Assembly (NCBI RefSeq): GCF_037975245.1
Contig: NC_092568.1
Span: 40,648,631 to 40,712,630 of the forward strand
Direction of reading: 5' to 3'
Length of the DNA: 64,000 bases
DNA from: Apostichopus japonicus
Taxonomy: Eukaryota > Echinodermata > Holothuroidea > Aspidochirotida > Stichopodidae
Below are positions 24,576 to 62,135 of this stretch, one piece after another (within the stretch, counting starts at the first letter, position 1; the number at the start of each line of letters is the position of its first letter). The notes under the pieces are model-generated. The model saw nothing but the letters and a program-made list of their open reading frames with translations. It had not been told where the DNA came from and made no database searches. The position numbers and the translations under genes are program-made.

Positions 24576-25440
24576 GTGAGTTGCAAAAACTTTTCTTGCT
24601 CAATCTTCCAAGTAAAATATTTGCACACCAAGTCCTTGAATACTCTTATTAGGGCTGAATTCGAGTCAAATACATATGTGTCCAAGTTTATGTGGGGTCC
24701 CAAATCAGACCGAATCCGAGACAAGTGCAGAGTCCAGAACACCACAGTCCTAGTCCAACTTCCGCCACAAACTTCCAACACCATAAGTATGTGTTGCTAG
24801 GAGATATCAGAGGTGGTAGTTAAACTGGGTAAGCGGAACTAAAGAAGCCTACATTATTCCCCCTCTGGCTGTGTTGTAGATATTGATCATTCGTAATGAC
24901 GTTTTTGAAGGAACCACCCATGATTTGTGTTGAACTACGATTCACACTTTCAGTTGCTGTCAGGACGTTAGGTTGAAATCATACGAAAACAACTACATGT
25001 TAACACATTCATTATAAAATACCAGTGTTTCGTTCAGTTTCTATGTATTCCTTGCACACATAAGGTACCTTGAATAAATGATACTACCTACATCGTATCA
25101 GACAATAACTTTCTGTCAATGGAAAACAACCTATGTTTCTCAACCATTACGTTTTGTACGAGTCCCATATACTTCGGCGTATATCATTTACTGCTCACCA
25201 TCAACGTTGTACCTCTTGCTCATCCACCTTGATAATCTCAAATTTCACCAAAATGCCGACCATAATCAACTTTACTTGTCATTCAAAAAACCACATCAGT
25301 GCTTCCTCTGTGGTATGCTTTATACACATGAATGCGTCAATGACAAAACACAACGGATGCAATGGCATCAATTTAAAATTGAATGAACTGAATTTAACAG
25401 TAGAGAAGTTAAAGAAAACTGGTTGTTTCAATAATAAAAA
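24576..25440. other. No gene recognised
   Basis: Overlapping open frames on both strands near 24566-24800 look like a dispersed repeat. Those at 25078-25495 overlap each other in two frames and match nothing I know. Confidence 0.4.
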
Positions 25441-25540
25441 AGTTGACAATTTAAAGTCACTCTGTTTATGTTTTTACTGTTTCTTTCTATTATAAAATTA
25501 TACGTTCTTCTCTCCTCTCCATCTGTTCCTTTATCTGCAG

Positions 25541-25543
25541 AAT
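25541..25543 (+). other. Candidate 3-nt microexon 1 (AAT, Asn)
   Basis: Acceptor 'cctttatctgcag', donor 'gtaagt'. The unit is slightly rearranged: 452 bp to the next site. Confidence 0.6.
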
Positions 25544-25992
25544 GTAAGTACTATCATAATAAAGGTTTGTAGAACAGTTTTATTTTCGATTAACACGAAA
25601 AACAGGGAAAAGATTAGGAAAATCAGTTCTTTCACTTATCATTAACTTACATTTTAATGCCACTGTTCTCGTGTGTCAATCAAATATTGTAATTTGCACA
25701 CTATTGGTAATACACAATTTAACAAAAGATATCGTTATCGATTACATGGATTACAATGTCAACGAAGATAGAAAGATTTTTTTCAAATGAATTTGTAACT
25801 CTAACATTAACCATTGATGTTATCAGCTAGTGATGTTATTGGCCAAAAACAGAGGATAAGCTAAGGAAGGTTAGTTGTTTCAATTATCATAAACTGACAT
25901 TTTAAAGCCACTGTTCTCGTGTGTTTACTGTTTTTGCCTTCTCTATTATATGACGATTTGTTCTTTTCATTTACATATTCCTTTCTTGTCAG

Positions 25993-25995
25993 GGG
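25993..25995 (+). other. Candidate 3-nt microexon 2 (GGG, Gly)
   Basis: Acceptor 'cctttcttgtcag', donor 'gtaagt'. Next site 428 bp on. Confidence 0.65.
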
Positions 25996-26420
25996 GTAAG
26001 TCTTTATCATGATTAATGATTGTAGATGCGTATCATAAATTATCCCGCTTTCAAAGAAATAACAGGGAAATCAATTCTTGTTAATTCTTTATTTCATCAA
26101 CAGTGTCAATCAAATATTATAATTTGCACACTATTGGTAATGCACAATTTAACACAAGATATCGTTATCGATTACATGGATAGCAATGTCAATGAAGATA
26201 GAAAGATTGTTTTCAAATGAATTTGTAACTCTAACATTAACCATTGATGTTATCAGCTAGTGAGGTTAAGGGCCAAAAACAGAGGATAAGCTAAGGAAGG
26301 CTAGTTGTTTCAATTATTATAAACTGTCATTTGAAAGTCACTCTGTTTGTGTTTTTTGCTGTTTCTCTATCATAAAATGATTCATTCTTCTCTCCTCACC
26401 ATATGCTCCTTTCTTTGCAG

Positions 26421-26423
26421 GCG
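26421..26423 (+). other. Candidate 3-nt microexon 3 (GCG, Ala)
   Basis: Acceptor 'cctttctttgcag', donor 'gtaagt'. Next site 419 bp on. Confidence 0.65.
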
Positions 26424-26839
26424 GTAAGTACTTATCAGGATTAACTTTTGTAGAACAGTATTAATAGCTACTAACACGAGGAAAAACAATTTCTGTTAAT
26501 TCTTTCATTTCTTTATAAACAATTTGAATGAAACATTTTAATTTGCACAACATTGGTAACGCACGATTAAATACAATAACATTTTTATTGAATATATTAA
26601 GTTCAATGTCAATGAAATAGAATTATTGATTTGAAATGAATTTGTAACTATAATATTTAACCATTAATGATATGAATTAACCAGGTTTAGAACGAGAAAC
26701 AGGGAAAGCTAAGGAAAAATAGTTTTTTCACTTATCATATACTTACATTTTAATGCCACTGTTCTTGTGTGTTTACTGTTTTTGCCTTCTCTATTATATG
26801 ACGATTTTTCTTTTCATTTATATATTCCTTTCTTGTCAG

Positions 26840-26842
26840 GGG
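26840..26842 (+). other. Candidate 3-nt microexon 4 (GGG, Gly)
   Basis: Acceptor 'cctttcttgtcag', donor 'gtaagt'; same subtype as unit 2. Confidence 0.65.
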
Positions 26843-27266
26843 GTAAGTCTTTATCATGATTAATGATTGTAGATTTCGGTCATAACGTATTCCTCTTTCA
26901 AAGAACCACCAGAGAAATCAATTCTTGTTAATTCTTTATTTCATCAGCAGTGTCAATCAAATATTAAAATTTGCACACTATTGGTAATACACAATTTAAT
27001 ACAAGAAATGTTTTCGATTACATGGATAGCAATGTCAATGAAGATAGAACGATTGTTTTCAAATGAATTTGTATCTCTAACATTAACCATTGATGTTTTC
27101 ATCTAGTGAGGTTAAGAGCCAAACACAGAGGATAAGCTACGGAAAACTAGTTGTTTCAATTATCATAAACTGACATTTTAAAGTCTCTCTGTTTGTTATT
27201 TACTGTATCTAACTATTATAAAAAGATTCGTTCTTTTCTTTTCTCCATATGTTCCTTTCTTTGCAG

Positions 27267-27269
27267 GCG
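27267..27269 (+). other. Candidate 3-nt microexon 5 (GCG, Ala), weak donor
   Basis: Acceptor 'cctttctttgcag'; donor changed to 'gttagt', the weakest of block 1. Skipping is plausible. Confidence 0.55.
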
Positions 27270-27688
27270 GTTAGTACTTATCATGATTAACGTTTGTAGA
27301 ACGGTGTTAATATATATTAACACCAGGGAAAATAATTCCTGTTAATTGTTTATTTTCTTTATACACAATTTGAATGAAATATAACAGTTTGCACAACATT
27401 GGTAACGGACGATTTAATACAATAACAGTTTTTTTTCGATTATATTAAGTTCAATGTCAATGAAATAGAATGATTGATTTGAAATGATTTTGTAACTTTC
27501 ATATTTACCCATTAATGATATGAATTAACCAGGTTTAGAACGAGAAACAGGGAAAGCTAAGGAAAAATAGTTTTTTCACTTATCATATACTTACATTTTA
27601 AAGCCACTGTTCTCGTGTGTTTACTGTTTTTGCCTTCTCTATTATATGACGATTTGTTCTTTTCATTTACATATTCCTTTCTTGTCAG

Positions 27689-27691
27689 GGG
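27689..27691 (+). other. Candidate 3-nt microexon 6 (GGG, Gly)
   Basis: Acceptor 'cctttcttgtcag', donor 'gtaagt'. Confidence 0.65.
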
Positions 27692-28116
27692 GTAAGTCTT
27701 TATCATGATTAATGATTGTAGATGCGTATCATAAATTATCCCGCTTTCAAAGAAATAACAGGGAAATCAATTCTTGTTAATTCTTTATTTCATCAACAGT
27801 GTCAATCAAATATTATAATTTGCACACTATTGGTAATGCACAATTTAACACAAGAAATGTTTTCGATTACATGGATATCAATGTCAATGAAGATAGAACG
27901 ATTGTTTTCAAATGAATTTGTATCTCTAACATTAACCATTGATGTTTGCAGCTAGTGAGGTTAAGAGCCAAACAGAGGATAAGCTAAGGAAAAACTAGTT
28001 GTTTCAATTATATAAACAAATGGACAATTTAAAGTCACTCTGTTTGTATTTTTACTTTTTCTCTATTATAAAATGATTCGTTCTTCTCTCCTCTCCATAT
28101 TATCTTTTCTTTGCAG

Positions 28117-28119
28117 GCG
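28117..28119 (+). other. Candidate 3-nt microexon 7 (GCG, Ala)
   Basis: Acceptor 'tcttttctttgcag', donor 'gtaagt'. Confidence 0.65.
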
Positions 28120-28538
28120 GTAAGTACTTATCATGATTAACGTTTGTAGAACAGTATTAATAGCTATTAACACGAGGGGAAGAAATTGTTAATTCTTTCT
28201 TTTCTTTATACACAATTTGAATGAAATATTATATATAATTAGCACAACATTGGTAACGCACGTTTAAATACAATAACATGTTTATCGATTACATGAATGA
28301 CAATGTCAATTGAGTTAGACCGATTGTATTGGAATGAGTTTGTAACTTATATATTTAACCATTGAAGTCAAAAGCTAGTGCGATGATGAGCCAAACACAG
28401 GAAAAATAGCTACGGGAAACTAGTTGTTTCAATTCTTATAAAGTGACATTTTAAAGTCCCTGTGCTTTTGTTTTTATTTTGTCTCTCTATTATATAATGA
28501 TTCGTCCTTTTTCTTTTCATCTGCTCCTTTCTTTGCAG

Positions 28539-28541
28539 TTT
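28539..28541 (+). other. Candidate 3-nt microexon 8 (TTT, Phe)
   Basis: Acceptor 'cctttctttgcag', donor 'gtaagt'. Last unit of block 1; the next site is 7.8 kb away. Confidence 0.65.
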
Positions 28542-28739
28542 GTAAGTACCTATCATAATTAACATATGTAGAGCAATGGTATTATATATAAACATGAGGG
28601 AAATCAATTCCTGTTTGATCTTCATTTTCATACACAACTTGATTGAAATATAATTTTTACAACATTGGTAACGCATAATTTAATACAATTACATGTTTAT
28701 CAATTATAAGAATGTCAATTTCAATAAAGATATAAGACT

Positions 28740-29750
28740 AGTGACGTCGTTGTGGGTATGAATACAATGTCCAGAGAGTTATGTTAGTAATACAAGGCAA
28801 CAATGATCCATTCTTAAAGGTGCTTTCAAGATTCTTCCAATGTGAAATTTTCGACAGTAGGGTGGCAGCAGATATGCGGTTCCCGTGGTCGTACTGTGTT
28901 AGAGGAATTTAAAAAATTGTGCCGTTTTCTGAGCCAGGGATTTGTTATTCAAATAACACATTCTTGAGAATGATTATGAATATAGGCCAATGCCGTTGTT
29001 GTTGTTTGGGACGGTTGGAGTGAGGGAGGAGGGGAGATTGGGATTAGTGATGAGATCGGTGTCAAAAGTCGGAACCCGGTACGTGTCTCCATGGTTCAGT
29101 CGGTCTCCCGGGTTACGTTCATTATGCATTCAACCTAAACCTTACTTGGCCTATACTAAATACTTAATGGTAGTACGCATATTGGCGGCCGGATTAAACT
29201 TTTTAAAGGCCCGTGGCCAAAAATGTTTAGGGGTCCCTATATTTTTCAGTGAGATTTACTGGTACCGGATGTACTCGCAAAAGACATTCAATTTCACACA
29301 GAGGTTATGAAAGAATAACTTAATGTAATTAACAGACATAGGCACAACAACATTTTCCGTTTGTTGGGGTACATTTTCGGCCTTCTACTTTACTACTGAT
29401 ATCTTTTTTGGAAACATATAAGGATTTTTTCGTGGAATTTTTTCGTCTCTTAAATTGGGTATGCACTTCTAGTACTAACTGTAATCACTACAGGAAAATG
29501 AATGCAGCCATGTTCCAAAGTTTGCCGTCCAACAGTTCCTGTATTTATTGTAGTACAAGTAAATCACATTGCTTTGTTGAACGAAACGATCGCACTAACT
29601 ATGAACATAACTTCGTCGAATTAAGAATTGCTTACAGGAGATATTCGTACACATTCGCAATTTTTAATCGTCGTTCGATGCAGATCATTACCGAACGAAT
29701 ATAATTCCCTACTAGTGTGTAATACCTTGTCCATATCTTCAACCTCTCGC
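28740..29750. other. Non-repeat interruption of the array, start; no gene recognised
   Basis: Unit sequence ends near 28738 and unrelated DNA follows. Short open frames at 28990-29310 and 29408-29704 have no recognisable family. Fragments such as 'aaaggcccgtggccaaaaat' look transposon-derived. Confidence 0.4.
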
Positions 29751-29754
29751 TTAG

Positions 29755-31320
29755 TTCAGGAGTAGTATACCTAAAAATTTAAAAATAGCTTAATTCCTGC
29801 CACTATATAAATCAGGTGATGTTACAGATTAGAAAAATTATAGACCTATTTCTCTTTTACCCGTTCTTTCCGAAATCCTTTAAAACATAATTTTTAATCG
29901 AATTTATTCTTATCTTGCCAAATATAATATACTTAGTGATAATCAATATGGATTTCGTCCAAATCATGCAACATTTCTGGCGGATATTGATTTAATCGAC
30001 AAAGTCGCAAATGACTTTAACAATAAACACTTTGGGACTGGAATTTTTTGAATACCGTTAATCGTGACATCCTCTTAAGAAAACTTTCTCATTATGGTAT
30101 TAGAGGGACTGCCTTAAGTTGGTTTTCTAGCTTCCCGAATAATATACAAAAGTTTGTAACTTTTAAGTCTAGCTCTTCCACCATGAATTCAATCACATGT
30201 GGAGTTCCCCAAGGGTCTGTTCTTGGTCCTCTGCTTTTCTCATTTATATTAATGATATTCAGGCAACTTCAACGATTCTGTTTTTTTTATATTATTTGCC
30301 GATGACACTAATATTTTTTTTCAGTCACAAAAATTTACAACAGGGCTCAGCGATTGTCAACCAGGAACTAAAAAAAGTATCTGTTTGGTTTCGGGCTCAT
30401 AAATTATCTTTAAACATTGATAAAACAAACTTTATGCTTTTTCGTCCTTACCAACAAGCGGTATGTGATATAAATATAAAGATTGATAATCAGCTGATTT
30501 GTAAAGTGAGCACTACTAAATTCCTTGGTGTGATAATTGATAATCATATGAATTGGAAGCCACATGTTCAAAAAGTACAAACTTATGTTGCTAGAATTGT
30601 AGGTGTCATGTATAAACTTAATTCATTTATTCCATATAATATTCTACTATGTATAAAACCTTAATATTTCCTCATCTTCATTATTGTGCTATATCCTGGG
30701 CAAAGTCTTCTCCCAATAAAGTAAACTCCCTCTTTATCCTACAAAAAAGGGCTGTTAGAATACTTTGTAATGCATCTTATCGTGATTATATCTCCCATTT
30801 ATTTAGTGAGCTTAAGTTACTGATAATATTTGACATTTATCATTATCAGTTGGGTATTTTTATGTTCAGGTGGCGGGAATGCTTGCTTCCAACAATTTTT
30901 TTTTTCACTCCGACTAAAATATTTCATCACCATAATATCAGACAACAGTCAAATTTATTTCGTGAACATACCCATTCTGTATCTTCACAACTAACTGTTA
31001 GATACACTGGTCCTAGGTTTTTAAATACCCTAGATACCGAGGTCAATAGTTCCAAATCACTTTGACATTTTAAAACACAATTTAAACGGTCTTTATTCAA
31101 TAAGCACGTGTAAAGTTTCTAGTTTCTTTTCCTATGTTTAGGTGTATTTTGGTGGGGGTGGCCTGGCCCCGACAAGGTCTGCTTCTGCCAGGTCTCCCCC
31201 ACTTCACATTATTTCATTTTCGTTTTCATTTTCATTTTCATTTTCATTACAATTACAATTACAATTACAATTACAATTTCAATTTCAATTACAATTACAA
31301 TTACAATTTCAATAAATGGA
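29755..31320 (+). pseudogene. 5'-truncated CR1/L2-group LINE, RT relic
   Basis: Pieces in order: NYRPISLLPVLSEIL near 29840, QYGFRPNHATFLADIDLI near 29950, NTVNRDILLRKLSHYGIRG near 30050, SITCGVPQGSVLGPLLF near 30190, FADDTNIFF near 30296, WFRAHKLSLNIDKTNFMLF near 30390, TKFLGVIIDNHMNWKPHV near 30520, and FPHLHYCAISWAKSS near 30670. Several frameshifts break it. It ends in a GGGGTGGCC-type 3' region and a tail of repeated 'tttcat' then 'tacaat' units (31205-31315), as L2/CR1-type elements often do. It lies in the array's gap. Confidence 0.85.
31205..31315. repeat. Microsatellite-like LINE tail
   Basis: Hexamers of 'ttttca' type shift into 'attaca' type hexamers at the 3' end of the LINE relic. 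The resulting YNYNYN-like open frame is an artefact. Confidence 0.85.
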
Positions 31321-32190
31321 GTAATATCATTCTTTAGACTGGAAAGTTAAATTTCGAAATTATTTTAATGCATGCCCCTCGTGCTTTTGCTAATGTTAGA
31401 CCATTTGACGGATACAAGATGATACGTCCTGGCTAGCCTATTGCGAAATTGCAAAGTGGTCACAATGCATAGAATCGCACGATTCCAAGAGAACGTGTCT
31501 GTGTTTAATTATCGTGATTGCCATATGCCAGGAAACTGCTGCTCTAATAGTGTGTGATTTCTCAAATTCCTGTGGAGGACCCCACCCCATCCCTGTTTCA
31601 CGCTTTTGGTGCTCACAGGCTCGGTTTTCGCATTTCATTTCATACTTTTAGTTAACTATCCCTTCGACAGTTCAACGGATGAAATTTTCTGTTCTAGTTA
31701 GGTATTGGTATATTTCCTATCAGTACGGTTACCATGGTTACAAGTGCTTGGAAATGGGTCATATTGTAAAAGTACCTAAACTGAACGAATTTAGCCCGCG
31801 AAACTCCTCCACCAAACTTGAACTGTGATATTAATCAAGCCGTGTCATTATATATCCCTGTCGTGTGGTTACAACCAATCAGATGTTAGTAGATGCTTTC
31901 CATTAGCTGTGTCGAATTTTTTTGGGACCGTTCCACTAAATTTGACAGGGGAGGGGGGTGGGGTCAACTTTCGAACATACGTGTCCCTTACAACTGTATA
32001 ACTTATTGTTTATAGTACCCATTAACACAGTGATTTGTACGGGAAAAATATCAATTAATAGATTGGTCGACCCGTACTGCGTATCAGTTAATCATCCTAA
32101 AAATTGTAGCCATCATAACATATAACCATCAAAACGTATTGAAGCACAGGTAACTAGTAAAAATGGGGGGGGGGAGATCCAAAAAAGACT
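31320..32190. other. No gene recognised
   Basis: Low-complexity AT-rich sequence with short G tracts near 31945 and 32165. Nothing coding is supported. Confidence 0.4.
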
Positions 32191-32193
32191 ATT

Positions 32194-32565: not shown

Positions 32566-32579
32566 TAATTGATTCACGT

Positions 32580-36296: not shown

Positions 36297-36299
36297 GTG
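36297..36299 (+). other. Candidate 3-nt microexon 9 (GTG, Val)
   Basis: Acceptor 'aatttctttgcag', donor 'gtaagt'. First unit after the gap. Confidence 0.65.
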
Positions 36300-36706: not shown

Positions 36707-36709
36707 GTG
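36707..36709 (+). other. Candidate 3-nt microexon 10 (GTG, Val), weak acceptor
   Basis: Acceptor 'gcttctttaaag' has lost CAG but keeps AG; donor 'gtaagt'. Confidence 0.55.
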
Positions 36710-37137: not shown

Positions 37138-37140
37138 TTT
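37138..37140 (+). other. Candidate 3-nt microexon 11 (TTT, Phe)
   Basis: Acceptor 'tttatattgttgcag', donor 'gtaagt'. Confidence 0.65.
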
Positions 37141-37541: not shown

Positions 37542-37544
37542 GTT
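37542..37544 (+). other. Candidate 3-nt microexon 12 (GTT, Val), weak acceptor
   Basis: Acceptor 'cttttatctgaag'; donor 'gtaagt'. Confidence 0.55.
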
Positions 37545-37976: not shown

Positions 37977-37979
37977 GGA
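37977..37979 (+). other. Candidate 3-nt microexon 13 (GGA, Gly)
   Basis: Acceptor 'gtttgaatccag', donor 'gtgagt'. Next unit is shortened to 317 bp. Confidence 0.62.
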
Positions 37980-38293: not shown

Positions 38294-38296
38294 GGA
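38294..38296 (+). other. Candidate 3-nt microexon 14 (GGA, Gly)
   Basis: Acceptor 'gtttaattccag', donor 'gtgagt'; close copy of unit 13. A 485-bp interval follows, with local AT insertion. Confidence 0.62.
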
Positions 38297-38778: not shown

Positions 38779-38781
38779 TCG
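38779..38781 (+). other. Candidate 3-nt microexon 15 (TCG, Ser)
   Basis: Acceptor 'tgtttctctacag', donor 'gtaagt'. The only Ser triplet. Confidence 0.65.
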
Positions 38782-39118: not shown

Positions 39119-39121
39119 GCG
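39119..39121 (+). other. Candidate 3-nt microexon 16 (GCG, Ala), weaker donor
   Basis: Acceptor 'ttttttctttgcag', donor 'gtaatt'. Confidence 0.58.
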
Positions 39122-39557: not shown

Positions 39558-39560
39558 CTG
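39558..39560 (+). other. Candidate 3-nt microexon 17 (CTG, Leu)
   Basis: Acceptor 'aattgttagcag' has a second AG three bases upstream of the used one; donor 'gtaagt'. Confidence 0.6.
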
Positions 39561-39963: not shown

Positions 39964-39966
39964 GCA
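39964..39966 (+). other. Candidate 3-nt microexon 18 (GCA, Ala)
   Basis: Acceptor 'ccattcatttttcag', donor 'gtaagt'. Confidence 0.65.
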
Positions 39967-40370: not shown

Positions 40371-40373
40371 GCA
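40371..40373 (+). other. Candidate 3-nt microexon 19 (GCA, Ala)
   Basis: Acceptor 'atttctttgcag', donor 'gtaagt'. Confidence 0.65.
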
Positions 40374-40780: not shown

Positions 40781-40783
40781 ATT
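40781..40783 (+). other. Candidate 3-nt microexon 20 (ATT, Ile)
   Basis: Acceptor 'atttttttttttcag', donor 'gtaagt'. Confidence 0.65.
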
Positions 40784-41205: not shown

Positions 41206-41208
41206 GGA
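41206..41208 (+). other. Candidate 3-nt microexon 21 (GGA, Gly)
   Basis: Acceptor 'attcttgttttgcag', donor 'gtaagt'. Confidence 0.65.
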
Positions 41209-41619: not shown

Positions 41620-41622
41620 GTT
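41620..41622 (+). other. Candidate 3-nt microexon 22 (GTT, Val)
   Basis: Acceptor 'tttttcttcacag', donor 'gtaagt'. Confidence 0.65.
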
Positions 41623-42044: not shown

Positions 42045-42047
42045 ACA
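42045..42047 (+). other. Candidate 3-nt microexon 23 (ACA, Thr)
   Basis: Acceptor 'tgtttctttgcag', donor 'gtaagt'. The 1267-bp duplication starts just downstream. Confidence 0.65.
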
Positions 42048-42475
42048 GTAAGTCTTTTTCATGAATTACACATGTAGATACGTGTCAGTATGTAATCTCT
42101 CTTCAAAGAAACCACAAGGAAAATCAATATCCGATACGCCTGTATTTTCATACACAATTTGAATAAAATATAATAGCTTTACATACAAAACTTTGGTAAC
42201 GCACCATTTAATAGAATAGCATGTTTATCTATGATATGTGTAGCAATGTAAATGAAGATGGAATGATTGTATTGAAATTATTGTTTTAGTTTTTGTACAT
42301 TCAACTATTTGGTGATATGAGCAAGAGATGTGATGAACCAAAACAGGGAAAACCTTAGGGACATCTAGTTTGTTTCAGTTTTAATAAACTAACATTTTAA
42401 ATTCACTATACTGTTCTTTCTGTATTATAGGATGATTATTGGTTCTTTTATTTTGATCTATTTATTTCTTTGCAG

Positions 42476-42478
42476 GGG
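42476..42478 (+). other. Candidate 3-nt microexon 24 (GGG, Gly)
   Basis: Acceptor 'tatttctttgcag', donor 'gtaagt'. Recent duplicate partner of unit 27. Confidence 0.65.
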
Positions 42479-42891
42479 GTAAGTAATTATCATTATTAAC
42501 ATTTATAGACTAGATATATGTCATTTTCCGTTCCTTGTTCAAAGAAACCACAATGGGAATTCAATTCTTGTGAAATTCTTTATTTTCATACATAATTTGA
42601 ATGAAATATTGAATTTTCACAACTTTTGTAACGCATAATAAACGTGTTTATGGATTATATGAAAGGTTATTTCAATGACGATACAACGATTTATGTGTAA
42701 ATTTAAAATTAAATCACTGAAGACAAAAGAAAGTGAGATGATGAGCCACAAACGGGGAAAACGTTAAGGAAATAAAGTTCTTTCAGTTGTAATAAGTTGC
42801 CATTAGAAAGTCATTTTGTTTGTGTTTTTTTCTCCACAATGATATAATGATTTGTTCATTTTCTATTTGTTTTTTGTTTGTTTCTTTGCAG

Positions 42892-42894
42892 GTT
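42892..42894 (+). other. Candidate 3-nt microexon 25 (GTT, Val)
   Basis: Acceptor 'tgtttctttgcag', donor 'gtaagt'. Partner of unit 28. Confidence 0.65.
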
Positions 42895-43310
42895 GTAAGT
42901 CTTGCTCATGAATAACACTTGTAGATACGTATCAGTATGTAGTCGCACTTCAAAGAAACCACAGGGGAAATCAATTCCGGATGAGCCTTTATTTTCATAC
43001 ACAATTTGAATGAAATATTATAATTTTTACAAATTTGGCAACGCAATATTTAATAGAATAAAGTGTTATCTATTATATATATGGCAATGTAAATGACGAT
43101 TTAATGATTGCTTTGAGAATGAATTTATTTTTTTGTACATTTAACCATTGATGATATACGATAGTGAGGTGATGAGCCAAAAACAGGGAAAACCTTAGGA
43201 AATGTAGTTCTTTCAGTTGTAATATAATACCATTAGAAAGTTTTTGTGTCTTCTCTCTTCAATAATATGATTTGTTCTTTTCTTATTTCTTTCTGTTTGT
43301 TTCTTTGCAG

Positions 43311-43313
43311 GTT
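43311..43313 (+). other. Candidate 3-nt microexon 26 (GTT, Val)
   Basis: Acceptor 'tgtttctttgcag', donor 'gtgagt'. Partner of unit 29. Confidence 0.63.
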
Positions 43314-43742
43314 GTGAGTCTTTTTCATGAATTACACATGTAGATACGTGTCAGTATGTAATCTCTCTTCAAAGAATCCACAAGGAAAATCAATACCCGA
43401 TAAGCCTGTATTTTCATACACAATTTGAATGAAATATAATAGCTTTACATACAAAACTTTGGTAACGCACCATTTAATAGAATAGCATGTTTATCTATGA
43501 TATGTGTAGCAATGTAAAATGAAGATGGAATGATTGTATTGAAATTATTGTTTTAGTTTTTGTACATTCAACTATTTGGTGATATGAGCAAGAGATGTGA
43601 TGAACCAAAACAGGGAAAACCTTAGGGACATCTAGTTTGTTTCAGTATTAATAAACTAACATTTTAAATTCACTATACTGTTGTTTCTGTATTATAGGAT
43701 GATTATTGGTTCTTTTATTTTGATCTATTTATTTCTTTGCAG

Positions 43743-43745
43743 GGG
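43743..43745 (+). other. Candidate 3-nt microexon 27 (GGG, Gly)
   Basis: Acceptor 'tatttctttgcag', donor 'gtaagt'; exactly 1267 bp after unit 24. Confidence 0.65.
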
Positions 43746-44158
43746 GTAAGTAATTATTATTATTAACATTTGTAGACTAGATATATGTCATTTTCTGTTC
43801 CTTGTTCAAAGAAACCACAATGGGAATTCAATTCTTGTGAAATTCTTTATTTTCATACATAATTTGAATGAAATATTGAATTTTCACAACTTTTGTAACG
43901 CATAATAAACGTGTTTATGGATTATATGAAAGGTTATTTCAATGACGATACAACGATTTATGTGTAAATTTAAAATTAAATCACTGAAGACAAAAGAAAG
44001 TGAGATGATGAGCCACAAACGGGGAAAACGTTAAGGAAATAAAGTTCTTTCAGTTGTAATAAGTTGCCATTAGAAAGTCATTTTGTTTGTGTTTTTTTCT
44101 CCACAATGATATAATGATTTGTTCATTTTCTATTTGTTTTCTGTTTGTTTCTTTGCAG

Positions 44159-44161
44159 GTT
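44159..44161 (+). other. Candidate 3-nt microexon 28 (GTT, Val)
   Basis: Acceptor 'tgtttctttgcag', donor 'gtaagt'; exactly 1267 bp after unit 25. Confidence 0.65.
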
Positions 44162-44577
44162 GTAAGTCTTGCTCATGAATAACACTTGTAGATACGTATC
44201 AGTATGTAGTCGCACTTCAAAGAAACCACAGGGGAAATCAATTCCGGATGAGCCTTTATTTTCATACACAATTTGAATGAAATATTATAATTTTTACAAA
44301 TTTGGCAACGCAATATTTAATAGAATAAAGTGTTATCTATTATATATATGGCAATGTAAATGACGATTTAATGATTGCTTTGAGAATGAATTTATTTTTT
44401 TGTACATTTAACCATTGATGATATATGATAGTGAGGTGATGAGCCAAAAACAGGGAAAACCTTAGGAAATGTAGTTCTTTCAGTTGTAATAAAATACCAT
44501 TAGAAAGTTTTTGTGTCTTCTCTCTTCAATAATATGATTTGTTCTTTTCTTATTTCTTTCTGTTTGTTTCTTTGCAG

Positions 44578-44580
44578 GTT
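44578..44580 (+). other. Candidate 3-nt microexon 29 (GTT, Val)
   Basis: Acceptor 'tgtttctttgcag', donor 'gtgagt'; exactly 1267 bp after unit 26. Confidence 0.63.
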
Positions 44581-45003
44581 GTGAGTCTTTTTCATGAATT
44601 ACACATGTAGTTACGTGTCAGTATGTAGTCGCACTTCAAAGAATCCACAAGGAAAACCAATACCCGATAAGCCTGTATTTTCATACAAATCTTGAATTAA
44701 ATAAAATAACTCACACAAATTTGGTAACGCGGCATTTAATACAAAATGGCATGTTTATCCATTCTATATATGGCAATGTAAAATGAAGATGGAATGTTTG
44801 CTTTTGAAGTATTATTATATGTTTGTACATCCAACTATTTGAGGATATGAGCAGAGAGGTGATCATCCAAACAGGGAAAACGCTAACGAGAACTAGTTTG
44901 TTTCAATTGTATTAAACTAACATTATAATATCACTATTCTGCTTTTTCTGTTTTATATGATGATAATTTATTCTTTTTTCTGTATCTATTTATTTCTTTG
45001 CAG

Positions 45004-45006
45004 GCG
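45004..45006 (+). other. Candidate 3-nt microexon 30 (GCG, Ala), weaker donor
   Basis: Acceptor 'tatttctttgcag', donor 'gtaaat'. Confidence 0.58.
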
Positions 45007-45432: not shown

Positions 45433-45435
45433 ATG
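45433..45435 (+). other. Candidate 3-nt microexon 31 (ATG, Met)
   Basis: Acceptor 'ttttcttctttgcag', donor 'gtaagt'. The only ATG; the interval to the next is shortened (362 bp). Confidence 0.65.
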
Positions 45436-45794: not shown

Positions 45795-45797
45795 TTT
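45795..45797 (+). other. Candidate 3-nt microexon 32 (TTT, Phe)
   Basis: Acceptor 'tgtgtctttgcag', donor 'gtaagt'. Confidence 0.65.
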
Positions 45798-46215: not shown

Positions 46216-46218
46216 GGG
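46216..46218 (+). other. Candidate 3-nt microexon 33 (GGG, Gly)
   Basis: Acceptor 'tatttctttgtag' (TAG rather than CAG), donor 'gtaagt'. Confidence 0.62.
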
Positions 46219-46633: not shown

Positions 46634-46636
46634 TTT
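46634..46636 (+). other. Candidate 3-nt microexon 34 (TTT, Phe)
   Basis: Acceptor 'tatttctttgcag', donor 'gtaagt'. Confidence 0.65.
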
Positions 46637-47062: not shown

Positions 47063-47065
47063 GCT
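47063..47065 (+). other. Candidate 3-nt microexon 35 (GCT, Ala)
   Basis: Acceptor 'cgtttctttgcag', donor 'gtaagt'. Confidence 0.65.
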
Positions 47066-47481: not shown

Positions 47482-47484
47482 CTT
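47482..47484 (+). other. Candidate 3-nt microexon 36 (CTT, Leu)
   Basis: Acceptor 'tttgtttttggcag', donor 'gtaagt'. Confidence 0.65.
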
Positions 47485-47907: not shown

Positions 47908-47910
47908 GTT
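47908..47910 (+). other. Candidate 3-nt microexon 37 (GTT, Val)
   Basis: Acceptor 'tctttttgtttgcag', donor 'gtaagt'. Confidence 0.65.
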
Positions 47911-48342: not shown

Positions 48343-48345
48343 GCA
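48343..48345 (+). other. Candidate 3-nt microexon 38 (GCA, Ala)
   Basis: Acceptor 'tgtttctttgcag', donor 'gtaagt'. A 464-bp interval with a partial internal duplication follows. Confidence 0.65.
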
Positions 48346-48806: not shown

Positions 48807-48809
48807 ACA
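48807..48809 (+). other. Candidate 3-nt microexon 39 (ACA, Thr)
   Basis: Acceptor 'tgtttctttgcag', donor 'gtaagt'. Confidence 0.65.
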
Positions 48810-49237: not shown

Positions 49238-49240
49238 ACT
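49238..49240 (+). other. Candidate 3-nt microexon 40 (ACT, Thr)
   Basis: Acceptor 'tgtttctttgcag', donor 'gtaagt'. Confidence 0.65.
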
Positions 49241-49665
49241 GTAAGTATTTTTCATGTTTAGCATTTTTAGATACGTATAAGTATGTATTTGCTCTTCAAA
49301 AGAAAAAAAGACAGTAATTCAATTCCCGATAAGCCTTTATTTTCATGCAATATATGAATGAAATATAATTTTCAAAACTTTGGCAACGCATCATCTAAAG
49401 AACAACTTGTTTATCTATTATATGTTTAGCAATGTAAATGACGATTTAATGATTGCTTTGAAATTAATTTGCTTTGTTTTGTGCATTTAACAACTGATGA
49501 TATAAGCTAGTCGGGTGATGAGCCAAAACAAAATGGAAAACGTTAAGGAAATCTACTTCTTTCAAGTGTTAAAAAGTTCCATTAGAAAGTCACTTTGTTG
49601 TGTTTATCCCCAATGTTGTGATGATTTCTTCTTTTCTTATTTCTTTCGGTTTATATTTTTTTCAG

Positions 49666-49668
49666 ATT
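49666..49668 (+). other. Candidate 3-nt microexon 41 (ATT, Ile)
   Basis: Acceptor 'tatatttttttcag', donor 'gtaagt'. Flanks resemble unit 20, which has the same triplet. A 519-bp interval with a partial unit follows. Confidence 0.65.
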
Positions 49669-50184
49669 GTAAGTATTTCTCACGATTAACATTTGTAGAT
49701 ACGTATCAGTATGTAATCGGTCTTCAAATATCCACAAGGAAAATCAATACCCGATAAGCCTGTATTTTCATACACATTGTATGAAATATTATAATTTTCA
49801 CAAATGTGGCAACGCAACATTTAATAGAACAACATGTTTATCTATAATATGTATGGCAATGTAAATGAAGATGGAATAATTGCTTTGAAATTATATTAAC
49901 CATTGATGATATAAGTCAATGTTCAATGTTCATTATTTTTGTAATGCACAGTTTCCTACAATTACAAGTTCATCAAATGTGTGAATGTCAATGAAGAAAG
50001 AACTATTGTTTTTTTTTAATAAATTTGTATGAATTGGTATGAATGTTTTACTTTAACATTCAGCCATTGATGATATAGCCTAGTGAGCCAAAACCAGGGA
50101 AAAATCTCAAGAGTTTGTGATTATTTATGATTTTTATATATTACTTTGATAAGCTCTTCTTTCTATCGTCTTCTTTGTTTGCAG

Positions 50185-50187
50185 CTG
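50185..50187 (+). other. Candidate 3-nt microexon 42 (CTG, Leu), weaker donor
   Basis: Acceptor 'tctttgtttgcag', donor 'gtaatt'. Confidence 0.58.
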
Positions 50188-50359
50188 GTAATTTTTTTTT
50201 ATCATTTACGTTTATCTACATATGTCATAATTTCTTCTATTCTCAAAGACACTTGCAGGAAAATCAATTCCTGTATTTCCATACATAATTTGAATGAAAT
50301 GTTATTAATTTTTACACCATTTGAAACTCTGAATTTAATACTTTAACATTTTTATCAAT

Positions 50360-50706
50360 TTATGAATGGTAATGTCAATGACGATAGAACAATTGTTTTG
50401 AAAATAAATTTAAACTTTAACATTTAACCATTAATGATATGAACTAGTGAGCCAATAGAAGGAATAAACTTCAGAAAACTAGTTGTTTCAATATATTAAA
50501 CTTACTATTATAGAGTCACTATGTTTTTCTCTACTATATGATGATTTGCTCATTTCTCCTTTCGCCTTTCTATCTATTCCATGCTATGCAGAAGGTAAGA
50601 CTTTTGAATTAACTTTGTATATACATATTCAAAGAAACCACAAGGGAATTCAATTCCCGATAAGCCTTTATTTTCATACACAGTTTGAATGAAATATTAT
50701 AATTTT
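50360..50706. repeat. Left copy of an unusually long LINE target-site duplication (347 bp)
   Basis: From 'ttatgaatggtaatgtcaat' to 'gaaatattataatttt'. It matches 56192-56527 except for two visible substitutions and an 11-bp deletion in the right copy. The right copy continues without a break into normal unit sequence ('cacaacttttgcaacgcaac'), while the left copy comes out of normal unit sequence. That is the arrangement expected of a target duplication. Confidence 0.85.
50592..50594 (+). other. Candidate 3-nt microexon 43 (AAG, Lys)
   Basis: Acceptor 'attccatgctatgcag' with a poorer pyrimidine tract, donor 'gtaaga'. Lies inside the left copy of the LINE target duplication. Confidence 0.6.
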
Positions 50707-51267
50707 GGCCGCCTCCAGGTAAACACGCGCACGGGAATGCACTCCCTAATCGTCTGATTTCTACCAGAACAACCTCCATTTTGTCGATCCAAAGTAGACC
50801 CGACTATGAATAAGCATGAGGTTAACAATACCGTCATATTCATAACACTTTTACCCACGTTGCTACGTCGTATTCTTTGAAGAAAGGATTACCGTCTAGA
50901 TCCTCAAATGACAATATCGCGCATCTCCTCCCTATACTATTCGGTGCAGTCAATAGCCTGAGGTTCTACATCGGCAAACAAAATGGCCGCCTCCATATAG
51001 ACTAAACATTCGATACCTGCTCAGAAGTTGATTGAAGTTTCTCTGTGATTATTCTACAAAGTGATCCCTTTGTTTTGGGACAAATTTGGACTGCGGTGAA
51101 ACGTAATATCACTGTTTGGTTCCTCCGAAAGTTGGTGCTACGAAAAAGATTTCCTAAGGAGGTTTTTCTACCGTCGAACAGTAAGTGTTTCTGTACTTTA
51201 CTACTGGCCTATATCGTGCATCCATTACCTGCACAATTTAAGGTTCAGATGCTAGTCCGAATGTAAG

Positions 51268-52005
51268 ATGGCAACAAGGCATGCAACGATAGATAAGAAG
51301 TTGGACACTATCATGGAAAAACTGGCCAATTTGGAAGGAATTCCGACCCAACTGGCAGATATTCAGTCCGAATTTAAAACACTGAAATCTGCAATGGTGG
51401 AGATTAACGAGTCTGTTGAGTTCATGGAGAAAGAGGTGATCGAATTGAAAGAAGTTATGAAATGCAAAGCTACGAGAGAGGAATTTGAAGGGTTAGGAAG
51501 TAAGCTAGCCAACATTGAGGAATCCACACAAAAGAGGCTGGATGATTTGGAGAACCGGTCGAGAAGGCAAAATTTAATCATCTTTGGAGTCTCTGAATCA
51601 AATAACGAATCGAGTGAGACAATCGTAAAAGATGATATTTTACACGGGTTGATGGGCTTCACAAATATCAACCTTGAACGGGTTCACCGTACACCTGGGG
51701 GCCCGAGGAACCCATCACAGGAGAAACCGAGGCCGATCCACGTCCGTTTCCGTGACCTTAGTGACATGGATAAAATACTCCAAGCAGCTCCAGGCAAACT
51801 GAAGGACACGCCATATCGGGGGGCAAAGATTTTTATCAGCGATGATGTTTGTCCAGCAATTCGAAATGCTAGGAAAGCTCTTCGGGCGAAACTACCAGAA
51901 GTTAGGCAAGGGGCCGGAGTCAGATACGCCTATGTTCCGCGATCCGTACAAGCCTGTATAGTCATGGTGAAGACCGATGGGAGTAGACATAAAATATATA
52001 AATGA
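51268..52005 (+). CDS. LINE ORF1 protein (L1/Tx1-type), 245 aa
   Basis: An intact frame from ATG. Residues about 1-95 are heptad-like and rich in Leu, Ile, Glu and Lys (DKKLDTIMEKLANLEGI...), consistent with the trimerising coiled coil of L1 ORF1p. It is followed by DLENRSRRQNLIIFGV, the usual entry into the RRM (Transposase_22) domain, and by NLERVHRTPGG and RPIHVRFRDLSDMDKILQAA, matching the RRM and C-terminal domain. The role by homology is RNA binding and chaperone activity in the LINE ribonucleoprotein. A gap of about 270 bp separates it from ORF2. Confidence 0.9.
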   Translation: MATRHATIDKKLDTIMEKLANLEGIPTQLADIQSEFKTLKSAMVEINESVEFMEKEVIELKEVMKCKATREEFEGLGSKLANIEESTQKRLDDLENRSRRQNLIIFGVSESNNESSETIVKDDILHGLMGFTNINLERVHRTPGGPRNPSQEKPRPIHVRFRDLSDMDKILQAAPGKLKDTPYRGAKIFISDDVCPAIRNARKALRAKLPEVRQGAGVRYAYVPRSVQACIVMVKTDGSRHKIYK

Positions 52006-52273
52006 GAGACATGGACCCAGACTGAAGTGTCCACATGTATCTGTTTTGAATCATGGAGGATTCGATAGAAGTAACTGCTATAGTGGGATGTGTGTTCCTG
52101 GTTGGATGATCGTGCTATCTTTTTTCGTATGTGTTTCTTTGTTTCTTTGTTTTTCAGCACCGTATCAGTGCTTTGTTCTGTGTTGTTCTTTGTTTTTTAT
52201 GTTTGTATCTTTGTTATAAAAAATCTCTTGCATGATGTGTTGCTTCTTGAAGTGGTGAATATGAAGTATTCTT

Positions 52274-55200
52274 ATGGCGAATAGTTTCAACATTTCGTCC
52301 CTCAATTGCCGGGGGCTTAATAGTAAAAATAAAAGACAGGATGTTTTTGACTACTTGACACAGGTGAAAAGTGACATTTATTGTTTACAAGACGTTCATT
52401 AGGATGAACACTTGGTTGATAGTATTCTCTCAGAATGGGATGGAGATTGTTATATTTCACCCGGGACGACTAATTCAAGGGGGGTCGCTGTTTGTATAAA
52501 GTCAACAGGAAATGTTACTGTTTGTAGACATCATTCTGATAATGAGGGTAATTATATTGCATTAATCATTGAGCCTGCAGGACTTACATTCACTCTCGTG
52601 GTCCTTTATGGGCCTAATAACGATACTCCATTTTTTTTTAACAACATTCAGGAGGTTACTGAGGATTTTAATACCCCTCATATTAATATTGTTGGGGACT
52701 GGAATCTCGTTGTTGATCCTGAAGTTGATACTTATAATTATCTTCATATTAATAATCCCAAAGCTAGACAGGCAGTATTAAACATGCAGAGTGATTTAGA
52801 ATTGTTTGATGTGTGGCGAGTTTTGCATCCTAATGAGAGAAGGTTTACTTGGCGTCAAAGAAATCCAGTCAAGCAAAGTCGATTAGATTTTTTCCTAATT
52901 TCTTCTGGTTTACTCAACATGGTGTTGAAGTCATCTATCACAGCACGTTATAGAACTGATCATTCTTTAATTACTACATCTTTTAACTTCAATGTAATTA
53001 GGATGGGTAGGGGCATTTGGAAGTTCAATAATTCTTTGCTTGATGATGAAGGTTACTTGAAGAAAGTCAATGATGTGATTGACTCAACGATTGATCAGTA
53101 TGTATGCTTCCCATATATTCGCTCTAATTTAAATACAATTCCAAGAAAGGAAATTCAGTTTGTTATTGATGATCAGCTTCTCTTTGAAATGCTGCTGTTG
53201 AATATTAGGGGAGCATCAATTTCTTATTCCTCCTATAAGAAGAAGGTCCAAAACAGTAGAGAAAAATATCTTATTGAGGAAATTAATCGTATTGTGCCTT
53301 TTCATAATGAGAGTGAGGACACAAAGAATTATATCGATCAGTTGAATCGTGAGTTGGAGAAGTTACGTGAAAAAAGACTTCATGGGTGTATGGTAAGAGC
53401 TAGGGTTGATTGGGTGGAATATGGAGAGAAGCCTTCTAAGTTTTTTCTCCATTTAGAGAAGAGAAATAAGGTCAGTAGAAGTATTAGTCACTTGGAAGAT
53501 GCAGATGACCATGATATTTACGACCACGATCAAATTCAAAAGGATGTGTTCCATTTTTATCGCCAACTTTATAGATGTCATGATGCTTTTTTAAGAAATG
53601 AAGATCTCCATGAGAAGTTCTCAAATAAAATTGTGAAATTATCTACTGATCAATCAAGTGATCTGGAAGGGCCTCTGACCTTTGAGGAAATTACAGGAGT
53701 TTTGAGGAATATGAAGAATAATAAGTCGCCAGGTTCTGATGGTTTCTCCGTTGAATTTTTCAAATGTTTTTGGGACGATATTGGTCCCTTCTTATTACGG
53801 TCACTGAATTTTGGGTATAAAAACTATCTTTCTGTGACACAAAAGCATGGTGTAATTACCCTAATTCCGAAAGGTGGCAAACCACGTTATTACTTAAATA
53901 ATTGGAGACCAATAACTCTGTTGAATGTTCCCTATAAAATTGCATCTTCATGTATTGCTAATCGTATGAAAAAAGTATTGCCCAATATTATTTCTCCTGA
54001 CCAGAGTGGCTTTCTTGGTGGTAGGTACATTGGTGACAGTATTCTCACAGTGTATGATATTATCCATTCCCTGGAGTTAGATAATACACCAGGTATTTTG
54101 TTTGGGGTTGATTTTGAAAAGGCCTTTGACAGTATTTCAGTTACTTTCATTAGAAAAGTTCTTAATCTCTTTAACTTTGGGCCGTCTATTATTAGATGGT
54201 TTGATACTTTCTATAATGATAATTACTCATCAGTGTTGGTAAATGGTTTTCTGTCAGAAAAATTTCCCATTGAGCGTGGTTGTAGGCAGGGTGACCCTCT
54301 GTCCCCTTATTTATTTATTCTTTCTGCTGAACTTTTGAATAGCCTCGTTAACAGTGATGATTCTATTCGTGGTATTGATATTGAGGGACAGGTTTTCAAA
54401 ACTGTTCAATACGCAGACGAGACAACCTTTTTCATGCATGGTGACAGTACTTCTTTCAATAGGGTTATGGTACAACTTGACTATTTCAGAGATTTGTCTG
54501 GTCTCAAATTGAATTTGGACAAGTCCCTTTTAGTGGGACTGGGTAGTTTAAGAGGGCTTTCCATTCCACTTGATAAGAAGTATGCTATTCGTTGGAACAC
54601 AGGTGAAGATTTCACTCTTTTAGGAATTGTTTTCAATACAGATTTGGGGGGCATGGTTAAAAAAATTACGATAAAGCATTGAATTAAGTTTCAAATGTGA
54701 TAAAATTGTGGGAAAAGCGTTATCTTACAGCGCTTGGTCGTATTACAATTGTTAAGTCTCTCATGTTACCATGTTTCAACTATGATATCATGTCACTTCC
54801 GCTGCCTGACTTGGAGTATAGAAATAGGGTAAATTCTCTATTTTTCCGTTTCGTATGGAAAAATAAACCAGACCGTATAAGCCGTAAACAATTAAAGCTC
54901 AGTTACGCAGATGGAGGGTTGAATATGATAGATTTTTCTAAACACTGTGAGGCACTCAAAATAAGCACTTTTGGTCTTCTTCTGAAGAGTGATCATTTTA
55001 GCTTCAGCTCTTGTTATTTACGTAAATATAACATTTGCACCGACATGTTTTTTACCAATGGGGATTTCTATATAAAATTAGCTAGTTTGAGATCTGCTAA
55101 CCCCTTTTGGAGAAATCTCTTCGAAATAACATATATATTTATTCGAGATGAGCTATCTACCATTAATGATGATGCGACCATATTAACTTTGCCTCTCTGG

Positions 55201-56088
55201 AATAATGGGCTGATTGAAATTGGTAACAGTCCAGTGTATTACAAGCGCTGGTATGACAAAGGTATCCGTTTTGTTTGCGATTTTGTCACAGTTGATGGCA
55301 GGTTTTATAGTTTTGACAATTTCATCCAAAAGTATCTTGTTTCCACGAATTTTGTAGAATATTATGGTATTATTAACTCCATTAAAACTTTTTGGAATGG
55401 ACCTGCTCTGGATGGGAATATGGATATTGCTTTTCCAAACAATTGCTACTTTAACAAAATGCTTTACAATGGTATGTTCCGTTCGAAAGATATTTACAAC
55501 AAGTTACTACAGGAATCGAAGTTGATTCAGAAATCCTATACGAAATGGTGTGGTACCCTCGATATTACTGAGGAAGATCGGTCTTTTTATTGTTCAGTGC
55601 CATTCAAGTGTTCTAGTGATGCTAATTTGAGGTGGTTTCAGTATAGGCTGCTTCAGAGGATTATCCCGTCCAATAAGTACTTGCATTTAATAAAAGCAAT
55701 TACTCATGACACTTGTACTTTTTGTCATAGGTATGTTGAGACAATTGAACATTTGTTCTATTATTGTCCACTCTCAGTTAGGCTTTGGAATCATCTCCAA
55801 ACTTTGTTAAACAATATAGATATTGGTATAGTACTAGACATTAAGACAGTGTTGTTTGGTGCGGACATTGCCAGAGAGCTGAATTTGATTATAATTTTAG
55901 TTAAGAAATTCATTTTCAACTGCAAAGTACGGAAAGAAATTCCACTGCAGAATAAGTTACTATTGTTTCTGAGGGACTATTTTCTATTACAAAAAAACAT
56001 TTTGTTGCGTAATATGAAAAGCAGTGTTTGGAGGAAATATTGGTACCCTTGGTATAATTTTTTACAACTTCAGAATGTATTAAAATAA
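52274..56088 (+). pseudogene. LINE ORF2 (endonuclease and reverse transcriptase), disrupted
   Basis: The ATG at 52274 opens FNISSLNCRGLNS, typical of an APE-type endonuclease N-terminus. TAG at 52400 interrupts it after 42 codons. It then reads on through GDWNLVVD, SRLDFFLIS and TDHSLI (endonuclease), NNKSPGSDGFSVEFF, LIPKGGKPRYYLNNWRPI, GVDFEKAFDSI, GCRQGDPLSPYLFIL and QYADETTFF (RT). The RT box is YADE instead of YADD, changing a catalytic aspartate to glutamate. A frameshift in an A-run near 54660, with a TAA at 54685 in the other frame, separates the C-terminal part (54697-56088). That part contains the zinc-knuckle CTFCHRYVETIEHLFYYC. Probably inactive. Confidence 0.9.
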
Positions 56089-56191
56089 ATACTTTTTAGT
56101 TTTTTCTAGGAATTTTCACTAAGTCACCACTAGAGTGCTATATTATGTTAAGTTATAGTTGCAAGAGAAATAAAAAAAGAGAGAAAAAAAA

Positions 56192-56527
56192 TTATGAAAG
56201 GTAATGTCAATGACGATAGAACAATTGTTTTGAAAATAAATTTAAACTTTAACATTTAACCATTAATGATATGAACTAGTGAGCCAATAGAAGGAAAAAA
56301 CTTCAGAAAACTAGTTGTTTCAATATATTAAACTTACTATTATAGAGTCACTATGTTTTTCTCTACTATATGATGATTTGCTCATTTCTCCTTTCGCCTT
56401 TCTATCTATTCCATGCTATGCAGAAGGTAAGACTTTTGAATTAACTTTGTATATACATATTCAAAGAAACCACAAGGGAATTCAATTCCCGATAAGCCTT
56501 TATTTTCGAATGAAATATTATAATTTT
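56192..56527. repeat. Right copy of the LINE target-site duplication (336 bp)
   Basis: Matches 50360-50706 (see there); the length difference is an 11-bp deletion after 'tttattttc'. Carries its own microexon site. Confidence 0.85.
56424..56426 (+). other. Candidate 3-nt microexon 44 (AAG, Lys), duplicated by LINE insertion
   Basis: Acceptor and donor identical to unit 43 ('ccatgctatgcag', 'gtaaga'). Confidence 0.58.
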
Positions 56528-57176
56528 CACAACTTTTGCAACGCAACATTTAAAAGAATAACCTTTTAAATCATTATATGTATGGCAATGTAAATGACGA
56601 TGGAATGATTGCTATGAAATTATTTGTATTATTTCTTTGTACATTTAACAACTGATGATATAAGCTACTCGGGTGATGAGTCAAAAAAAAAAACGTTAAG
56701 TAAATCTACTTCTTTCAAGTGTAATAAAGTGACATTAGAAAGTCACTGTGCTGTGTTTTCTCCTCAATAACATGATATTTTCTTCTTTTCTTATTTATTT
56801 CTGTTTGTTTCTGCAGGCAGTACGTAGTTTTCATGTTTTCATGTATTTTTCATATTTTTCATGTATTTTTCACGTATCAGTATGTAGTCGCTCTTCAAAG
56901 AAACTTCAAAGAAAATAAGACTTTTGATTTAACTCTGTAGATACATATTCAAATACACCACAATGGAAATCAATTGAAAAGAAATGTTATTAATTTCCCA
57001 AAAAATGGTAACGCACATTTTAATACAATAACATGTGTATTGATTATATGGATGGCAGTGTTAATGACGAACTGTATGTTGAACCATTGATGATAATTAT
57101 GAGTTAGTGAGATGATGAGCCGAAAGCAAGGTAAAAGCTACGGAAAACTAGTTGTTTCAGGTTTATTAAAAGAGAA
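56528..57176 (+). repeat. Microexon array, tail
   Basis: Contains unit 45 and a further partial unit ('gatgatgagccgaaagcaag', 'actagttgtttcaggtttat') that is cut off near 57176 before an acceptor. Confidence 0.8.
56817..56819 (+). other. Candidate 3-nt microexon 45 (GCA, Ala), weaker donor
   Basis: Acceptor 'ctgtttgtttctgcag', donor 'gtacgt'. Last recognisable site of the array; its flank is locally scrambled by repeats of 'tttttcatgta'. Confidence 0.55.
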
Positions 57177-62105: not shown

Positions 62106-62135
62106 AGGAAAATCCAGAACAGTGAAAAACTTCCA

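Follow-up and report, generated by a model that had tools for sequence, protein, structure and literature searches.

In gene clusters of the Dscam type, an exon is duplicated in tandem together with its intron and the copies then diverge, the exons having the usual length and serving singly. Exons no longer than a codon are described from single genes, and the cited passages report 3-nucleotide (nt) exons in Ncam of the mouse and in troponin T of Drosophila (PMC8042270), and from plants a 1-nt exon in APC11 (PMC4674806) and one in VPS55 that goes with conserved GTRAGT donors (PMC8831610). Schistosome micro-exon genes (MEGs), as characterised in the parts of two papers that deal with them, have symmetric exons of up to 36 bp, a higher ratio of non-synonymous to synonymous change (dN/dS) and secreted or membrane products (PMC8293314), with exon sizes of 3 to 81 bp (PMC10526429). 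A tandem array of 3-nt exons was not among the literature matches listed, which covered titles and abstract openings, with subscription papers and preprints mostly outside. Here we describe a locus in a 64,000-nt stretch of the holothurian Apostichopus japonicus (contig NC_092568.1, positions 40,648,631 to 40,712,630, forward strand; the window), in which a unit of about 420 bp occurs in 45 tandem copies, each with a pyrimidine tract, AG, exactly three nucleotides and GT. The reading that we favour, though by no means with certainty, is that the triplets are 45 functional single-codon exons, which would be spliced in order into one hydrophobic, probably membrane, segment.

The array as a whole can be given as follows.

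25383..57061, plus strand: whole array of ~420-bp units, from nhmmer unit matches

The first unit core lies at 25538 and the last at 56814. An earlier note on this DNA had reported 45 such units, and the number was borne out by a model blind to the core: after the 12 core columns had been masked, the profile rebuilt and the window searched again, 51 matches were obtained, 45 of which span the core position, all 45 with an intact AG-NNN-GT, while the remaining six are fragments not reaching across the core. A count created by the search pattern was thereby ruled out, and 45/45 units have an acceptor and a donor around a very short segment, as microexons (internal exons of up to ~30 nt) do. The spacing of 317-519 bp given in the earlier note applies in general and fails at two large insertions (~28.7-36.2 kb and ~50.7-56.2 kb), which break the array and where it rises to 7758 and 5832 bp. 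The donors comprise 34 GTAAGT (36 had been counted before), four GTGAGT as counted previously, two GTAATT, two GTAAGA and one each of GTTAGT, GTAAAT and GTACGT; the acceptors are CAG in 42 units, AAG in two and TAG in one. Between them stand 17 distinct triplets, in agreement with the 15 or more values noted earlier. The candidate single-codon exons, with the amino acid in frame 0 in brackets, are:

25541..25543, plus strand: candidate exon 1, AAT (N); CAG, AAT, then GTAAGT
25993..25995, plus strand: candidate exon 2, GGG (G)
26421..26423, plus strand: candidate exon 3, GCG (A)
26840..26842, plus strand: candidate exon 4, GGG (G)
27267..27269, plus strand: candidate exon 5, GCG (A), donor GTTAGT
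27689..27691, plus strand: candidate exon 6, GGG (G)
28117..28119, plus strand: candidate exon 7, GCG (A)
28539..28541, plus strand: candidate exon 8, TTT (F)
36297..36299, plus strand: candidate exon 9, GTG (V)
36707..36709, plus strand: candidate exon 10, GTG (V), acceptor AAG
37138..37140, plus strand: candidate exon 11, TTT (F)
37542..37544, plus strand: candidate exon 12, GTT (V), acceptor AAG
37977..37979, plus strand: candidate exon 13, GGA (G), donor GTGAGT
38294..38296, plus strand: candidate exon 14, GGA (G), donor GTGAGT
38779..38781, plus strand: candidate exon 15, TCG (S)
39119..39121, plus strand: candidate exon 16, GCG (A), donor GTAATT
39558..39560, plus strand: candidate exon 17, CTG (L)
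39964..39966, plus strand: candidate exon 18, GCA (A)
40371..40373, plus strand: candidate exon 19, GCA (A)
40781..40783, plus strand: candidate exon 20, ATT (I)
41206..41208, plus strand: candidate exon 21, GGA (G)
41620..41622, plus strand: candidate exon 22, GTT (V)
42045..42047, plus strand: candidate exon 23, ACA (T)
42476..42478, plus strand: candidate exon 24, GGG (G)
42892..42894, plus strand: candidate exon 25, GTT (V)
43311..43313, plus strand: candidate exon 26, GTT (V), donor GTGAGT
43743..43745, plus strand: candidate exon 27, GGG (G)
44159..44161, plus strand: candidate exon 28, GTT (V)
44578..44580, plus strand: candidate exon 29, GTT (V), donor GTGAGT
45004..45006, plus strand: candidate exon 30, GCG (A), donor GTAAAT
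45433..45435, plus strand: candidate exon 31, ATG (M)
45795..45797, plus strand: candidate exon 32, TTT (F)
46216..46218, plus strand: candidate exon 33, GGG (G), acceptor TAG
46634..46636, plus strand: candidate exon 34, TTT (F)
47063..47065, plus strand: candidate exon 35, GCT (A)
47482..47484, plus strand: candidate exon 36, CTT (L)
47908..47910, plus strand: candidate exon 37, GTT (V)
48343..48345, plus strand: candidate exon 38, GCA (A)
48807..48809, plus strand: candidate exon 39, ACA (T)
49238..49240, plus strand: candidate exon 40, ACT (T)
49666..49668, plus strand: candidate exon 41, ATT (I)
50185..50187, plus strand: candidate exon 42, CTG (L), donor GTAATT
50592..50594, plus strand: candidate exon 43, AAG (K), donor GTAAGA
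56424..56426, plus strand: candidate exon 44, AAG (K), donor GTAAGA
56817..56819, plus strand: candidate exon 45, GCA (A), donor GTACGT

Conservation within the unit is concentrated at the putative splice sites. In the full-unit alignment, 325 columns are occupied in at least 90% of the units, and just four of these do not vary, namely the AG before and the GT after the triplet. When 44 of the 45 units were grouped into 22 disjoint nearest pairs, whose members differ elsewhere by up to 45%, the nine splice-site bases revealed 8 differences, where the rest of the unit would lead one to expect 38.6 (P 3e-9). In the full-unit alignment, the 12-column core showed no indels where 9.4 were expected (P 8e-5). 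Such a pattern is not that of an inert satellite, in which no class of sites is conserved above the rest of the unit. Acceptor-donor pairs in which both sites score at least as high as the lowest unit scores number 51 at a spacer of three (the 45 units and six others), compared with 1-15 at every other spacer from 0 to 30, which is the chance level. Pairing with U1 predicts that a G at exon position -1 compensates a weak donor, and indeed six of the seven donors outside GTRAGT have this G, compared with 13 of the 38 GTRAGT donors (Fisher P 0.017; 5/6 and P 0.034 with the AAG sister pair counted once); all three units without G at intron position +5 (exons 16, 30 and 42) carry it. The last triplet base is G in 19 units, T in 17, A in nine and never C. 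Donors usually favour A at position -2; a middle A occurs in just three of the 45 triplets, which is a point for the coding reading. The proposal of the earlier note, that selection acts on splice sites paired about an exon of 3 nt, thus appears well supported by the invariance confined to AG and GT, the deficit of splice-site differences and the G at weak donors, together with the hydrophobic frame.

Read in frame 0 as one codon per unit and in genomic order, the triplets would give NGAGAGAFVVFVGGSALAAIGVTGVVGVVAMFGFALVATTILKKA, without a stop; units 21-26 spliced in order, for example, would read GGAGTTACAGGGGTTGTT. A total of 42 of the 45 codons stand for A, G, V, L, I, F, M, T or S, and the polar ones are restricted to positions 1, 43 and 44. 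If they are placed at random, a hydrophobic run of at least 41 results in only 16 of 14190 arrangements, or nine of 946 with the AAG pair counted once, and since the polar codons are confined to the array ends, use of the codons in order is favoured. Shuffling of bases within columns produced 42 hydrophobic codons in 1231 of 200000 trials. The likelihood ratio of membrane-helix to intron composition reached +53 bits for frame 0, compared with -2 and +20 for the other offsets, and the mean hydropathy of 1.59 was matched by 33 of 5000 random stop-free triplet sets, the amino-acid frequencies and hydropathy values being approximate. All nine triplets with a middle G start with G (Fisher P 0.009). 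A coding role of the triplets is likely, and their collinear use is our best guess.

Placed between the most conserved columns, the triplet is at the same time the fastest-changing stretch of the unit. On a tree built from the intron sequence, its columns need 16, 13 and 12 parsimony steps, compared with a mean of 5.6 in 313 other columns, and the sum of 41 steps exceeds the maximum of 30 among 257 other three-column windows. The 22 disjoint pairs showed 28 triplet differences compared with 12.9 expected (P 1.7e-4), a variability matched by none of the 257 other windows, and the excess was also found in 16 pairs (13 compared with 6.6, P 0.019). Neutral evolution was simulated on the unit tree under nine settings with 400 runs each, and in no setting did more than 0.25% of the runs reach both 42 or more hydrophobic codons and 41 or more steps. 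The reading frame, the hydrophobic order and the rank of the triplet as the fastest-changing part go beyond the earlier note. The use of the sites in RNA and the translation of the triplets are predicted.

The fuller form of this proposal, to which we would give an even chance, is a membrane segment encoded one codon per exon by 45 collinear exons, which grew by duplication, are spliced by a ratchet and are subject to diversifying selection at each residue. A 3-nt exon would be too small for both of its splice sites to be bound at once, and as it cannot hold both splice-site complexes, stepwise removal of the introns would follow. With each splicing step, the codon of the unit reached would be added to the lengthening exon upstream, and the next donor would come to lie directly behind that codon, so that a codon-depositing ratchet would advance by one codon per ~420-nt step. 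The gene would grow by tandem duplication of intron plus codon, adding residues and leaving the frame untouched, after which diversifying selection would have driven the codons apart as far as a constraint to hydrophobic residues allowed.

Block duplications within the array are visible. The three-unit block 42473-43739 and its neighbor 43740-45000 share 1197 identities in 1256 aligned bases, and two-unit blocks of GGG-GCG (or GGG and the next triplet), which begin at 25990, 26837 and 27686, have identities of 88-91%. At 25597-25750, a unit remnant lacks the core, model positions 49-129 and 307-384 being adjacent; this remnant suggests that a codon may be lost by deletion of a whole core. Between units 43 and 44 lies a long interspersed nuclear element (LINE) at 51256-56088 with reverse transcriptase and zf-RVT domains, whose open reading frames (ORFs) at 52403-54682 and 54688-56088 are in different frames. 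A protein search with the LINE reverse transcriptase matched 1407 proteins; among the 120 listed, a few were named and one carried an organism label, that of a metagenome bin. One ORF of the 28.7-36.2 kb insertion, which lies between units 8 and 9, weakly matches reverse transcriptase (19.9 bits, under the Pfam cut-off of 29.6). Among the 10 of 24 window ORFs compared with Pfam, five matched, all to retrotransposon domains and two of them below the curated cut-off.

Candidates for flanking exons were found on both sides of the array, using approximate splice-site weights.

24548..24575, plus strand: tentative start exon, CTTCAACC-ATG-GACGTAATCAGAGAAAT then GTGAGT; 28 nt, Kozak-like ATG
57932..57946, plus strand: tentative last coding exon, E-H-R-N-stop in frame 0; acceptor score 10.6 (units -2.8 to 11.1)
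58650..58664, plus strand: duplicate of the tentative last exon, E-R-G-N-stop
59601..59628, plus strand: alternative downstream exon, Y-E-I-stop in the array frame; donor GTAAGTG

The start candidate has 17 pyrimidines in the 20 bases before its TAG acceptor, which scores below the cut-off of 4.5. The acceptor of the 59601 candidate resembles a shortened unit, in which two adjacent stretches of 13 nt agree exactly with the unit consensus. A tandem duplication of ~700 bp at 57866-59288 (654/706, 93% identical) has a strong acceptor in each copy, with a small length difference right behind the tentative last exon. As an early stop is likely in any frame of AT-rich DNA, none of the flanking candidates is established.

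Several observations weigh against the use of the triplets as codons of one collinear segment. Nine of 177 12-column windows are as free of indels as the core, so that the argument of the earlier note from the fixed gap is weaker than it seemed; gap-length invariance was dropped as the chief proof, and the base invariance of AG and GT is the stronger evidence. Similarly, at least 42 hydrophobic codons also appear when the units are read at other offsets, in 15 of 348 cases (12 within the pyrimidine tract), and at the intron rate they arose by themselves in 30% of the neutral runs with GTT at the root, 18% with GCA and 0.3% with GGG, falling to 3%, 1% and 0% at twice that rate. Hydrophobic composition alone is undone as a proof by these offsets and runs, and since it is not rare at the intron rate, what counts is its occurrence together with fast change, along with the result from the disjoint pairs. 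Measured against column-specific composition, frame 0 scores -27 bits, and the other frames -64 and -83. The triplet excess in the 12 closest disjoint pairs amounts to 7 compared with 4.1 (P 0.12), and the donors become weaker in units 42-45. Judged by eye, the exon at 24548-24575 is the best candidate upstream, but its end falls after the second base of a codon, a phase that does not suit frame 0, so that joining the array in that frame would need a further exon. Finally, the conceptual peptides of frame 0 and of the rival frame set by this exon found no homologue in a general protein database, no MEG set having been searched directly.

Among the other explanations, the least improbable, though still unlikely, is that the single-codon exons serve as alternatives, with one or a few per transcript (cassette or mutually exclusive), and provide a repertoire of single hydrophobic residues. 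Tandemly duplicated exon arrays, as in Dscam, are a known setting of mutually exclusive use, symmetric exons can be skipped without a change of frame, and the fast change of the triplet speaks for this as well; yet the restriction of polar codons to the array ends has no reason if their order is irrelevant, and when the unit consensus was compared, in a crude test for docking/selector complementarity, with parts of the flanks and of the gap, the best minus-strand match had E 0.13. Rather more doubtful is a frame set by the 24548-24575 exon (MDVIRE plus two bases), which would yield a 48-residue peptide rich in Leu, Arg and Gln with a stop across units 42/43. The Kozak-like ATG, the pyrimidine-rich stretch before TAG and the GTGAGT donor speak for this exon, and the frame stays open through 42 array codons to end where the donors weaken. 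Against these stand its sub-threshold acceptor, the requirement that 42 residues include no Ala, Ser, Thr, Pro, Val, Lys or Asn, a likelihood ratio for membrane or average protein composition under that of frame 0, a first codon base that is never A in units 2-42, for which there is no protein reason, and the absence of a homologue in the protein database.

Two further explanations do without functional codons, and we regard both as very improbable, to the same degree. The sites may be non-coding and help to splice a long intron, either as ratchet points of recursive splicing or as decoys. The closeness of AG and GT does resemble ratchet points as outlined in the cited passage (PMC8605326), where, however, the two are juxtaposed with zero bases between them. 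While it fits this role that no other part of the unit is as conserved as the splice bases, the hydrophobic bias and the fast triplet change are left unexplained. A recursive-splicing exon with a GTATGT donor was rejected, as this hexamer lies 25-60 nt downstream in only 11/45 units, other donor sequences being outside this count. Alternatively, the locus could be an inert tandem repeat with a splice-like ancestral unit, or a recently dead gene, as the retrotransposon insertions, the six unit fragments without a core and the other indel-free windows might indicate. The restriction of invariance to AG and GT despite strong divergence elsewhere and the deficit of splice-site differences argue against it, although a very recently dead gene would look alike; an inert satellite does not account for the combination of conserved splice bases, fast triplet and stop-free hydrophobic order.

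Other repeats in the window include one of 76 bp at 1945-3000, arranged in tandem with a higher-order period of 227 bp, and a 179-bp repeat in two arrays about 3.5 kb apart (8355-10037 and 13529-16326), whose consensus units are, by eye, mutual reverse complements. Rfam and tRNA scans of the window revealed one tRNA-like site at 62134-62208 on the minus strand, similar to tRNA-Cys with anticodon aca and possibly a tRNA-derived repeat. A search for the core pattern in viral and prokaryote contigs gave no match.

If the exons are used, a segment of ~45 residues costs 44 introns and ~31 kb of DNA, the two insertions included, and exon size is down to one codon throughout. The locus would then test the spliceosome on consecutive exons too small for exon definition, and would represent a route for residue-by-residue protein growth in which protein length shifts by one residue per unit gained or lost. 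Skipping of units would allow a frame-safe repertoire, i.e., natural single-residue combinatorial variation. The whole segment would escape any annotation pipeline that sets a lower limit to exon length.

Compared with known systems, the array shares with Dscam-type clusters the tandem duplication of exon plus intron followed by divergence of the exon, but here the order along the array appears to matter. The ratchet points of Drosophila Ubx and kuz, as far as they are described in the cited passage, likewise have an acceptor and a donor nearly touching and remove the intron stepwise (PMC8605326); they differ in that zero bases separate the two sites and that the cryptic exon there has a further donor of its own downstream, whereas three bases are found here in 45/45 units, and neither the zero-base AG-GT nor a conserved downstream GTATGT donor characterizes the array. 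With schistosome MEGs, it would have in common many short symmetric exons between longer introns, a high dN/dS and a secreted or membrane product, and the array segment by itself, with 45 symmetric 3-nt segments, can be set beside their mainly symmetric exons of at most 36 bp; MEG exons are of mixed sizes, and the MEG passages of the cited papers contain no array of 3-nt exons. The microexons of Ncam, troponin T, APC11 and VPS55 resemble the candidate exons as spliceosomal exons of no more than one codon, but in the passages cited above they are single exons in ordinary genes, whereas here 45 homologous 3-nt segments stand in tandem and would make up a whole protein segment.

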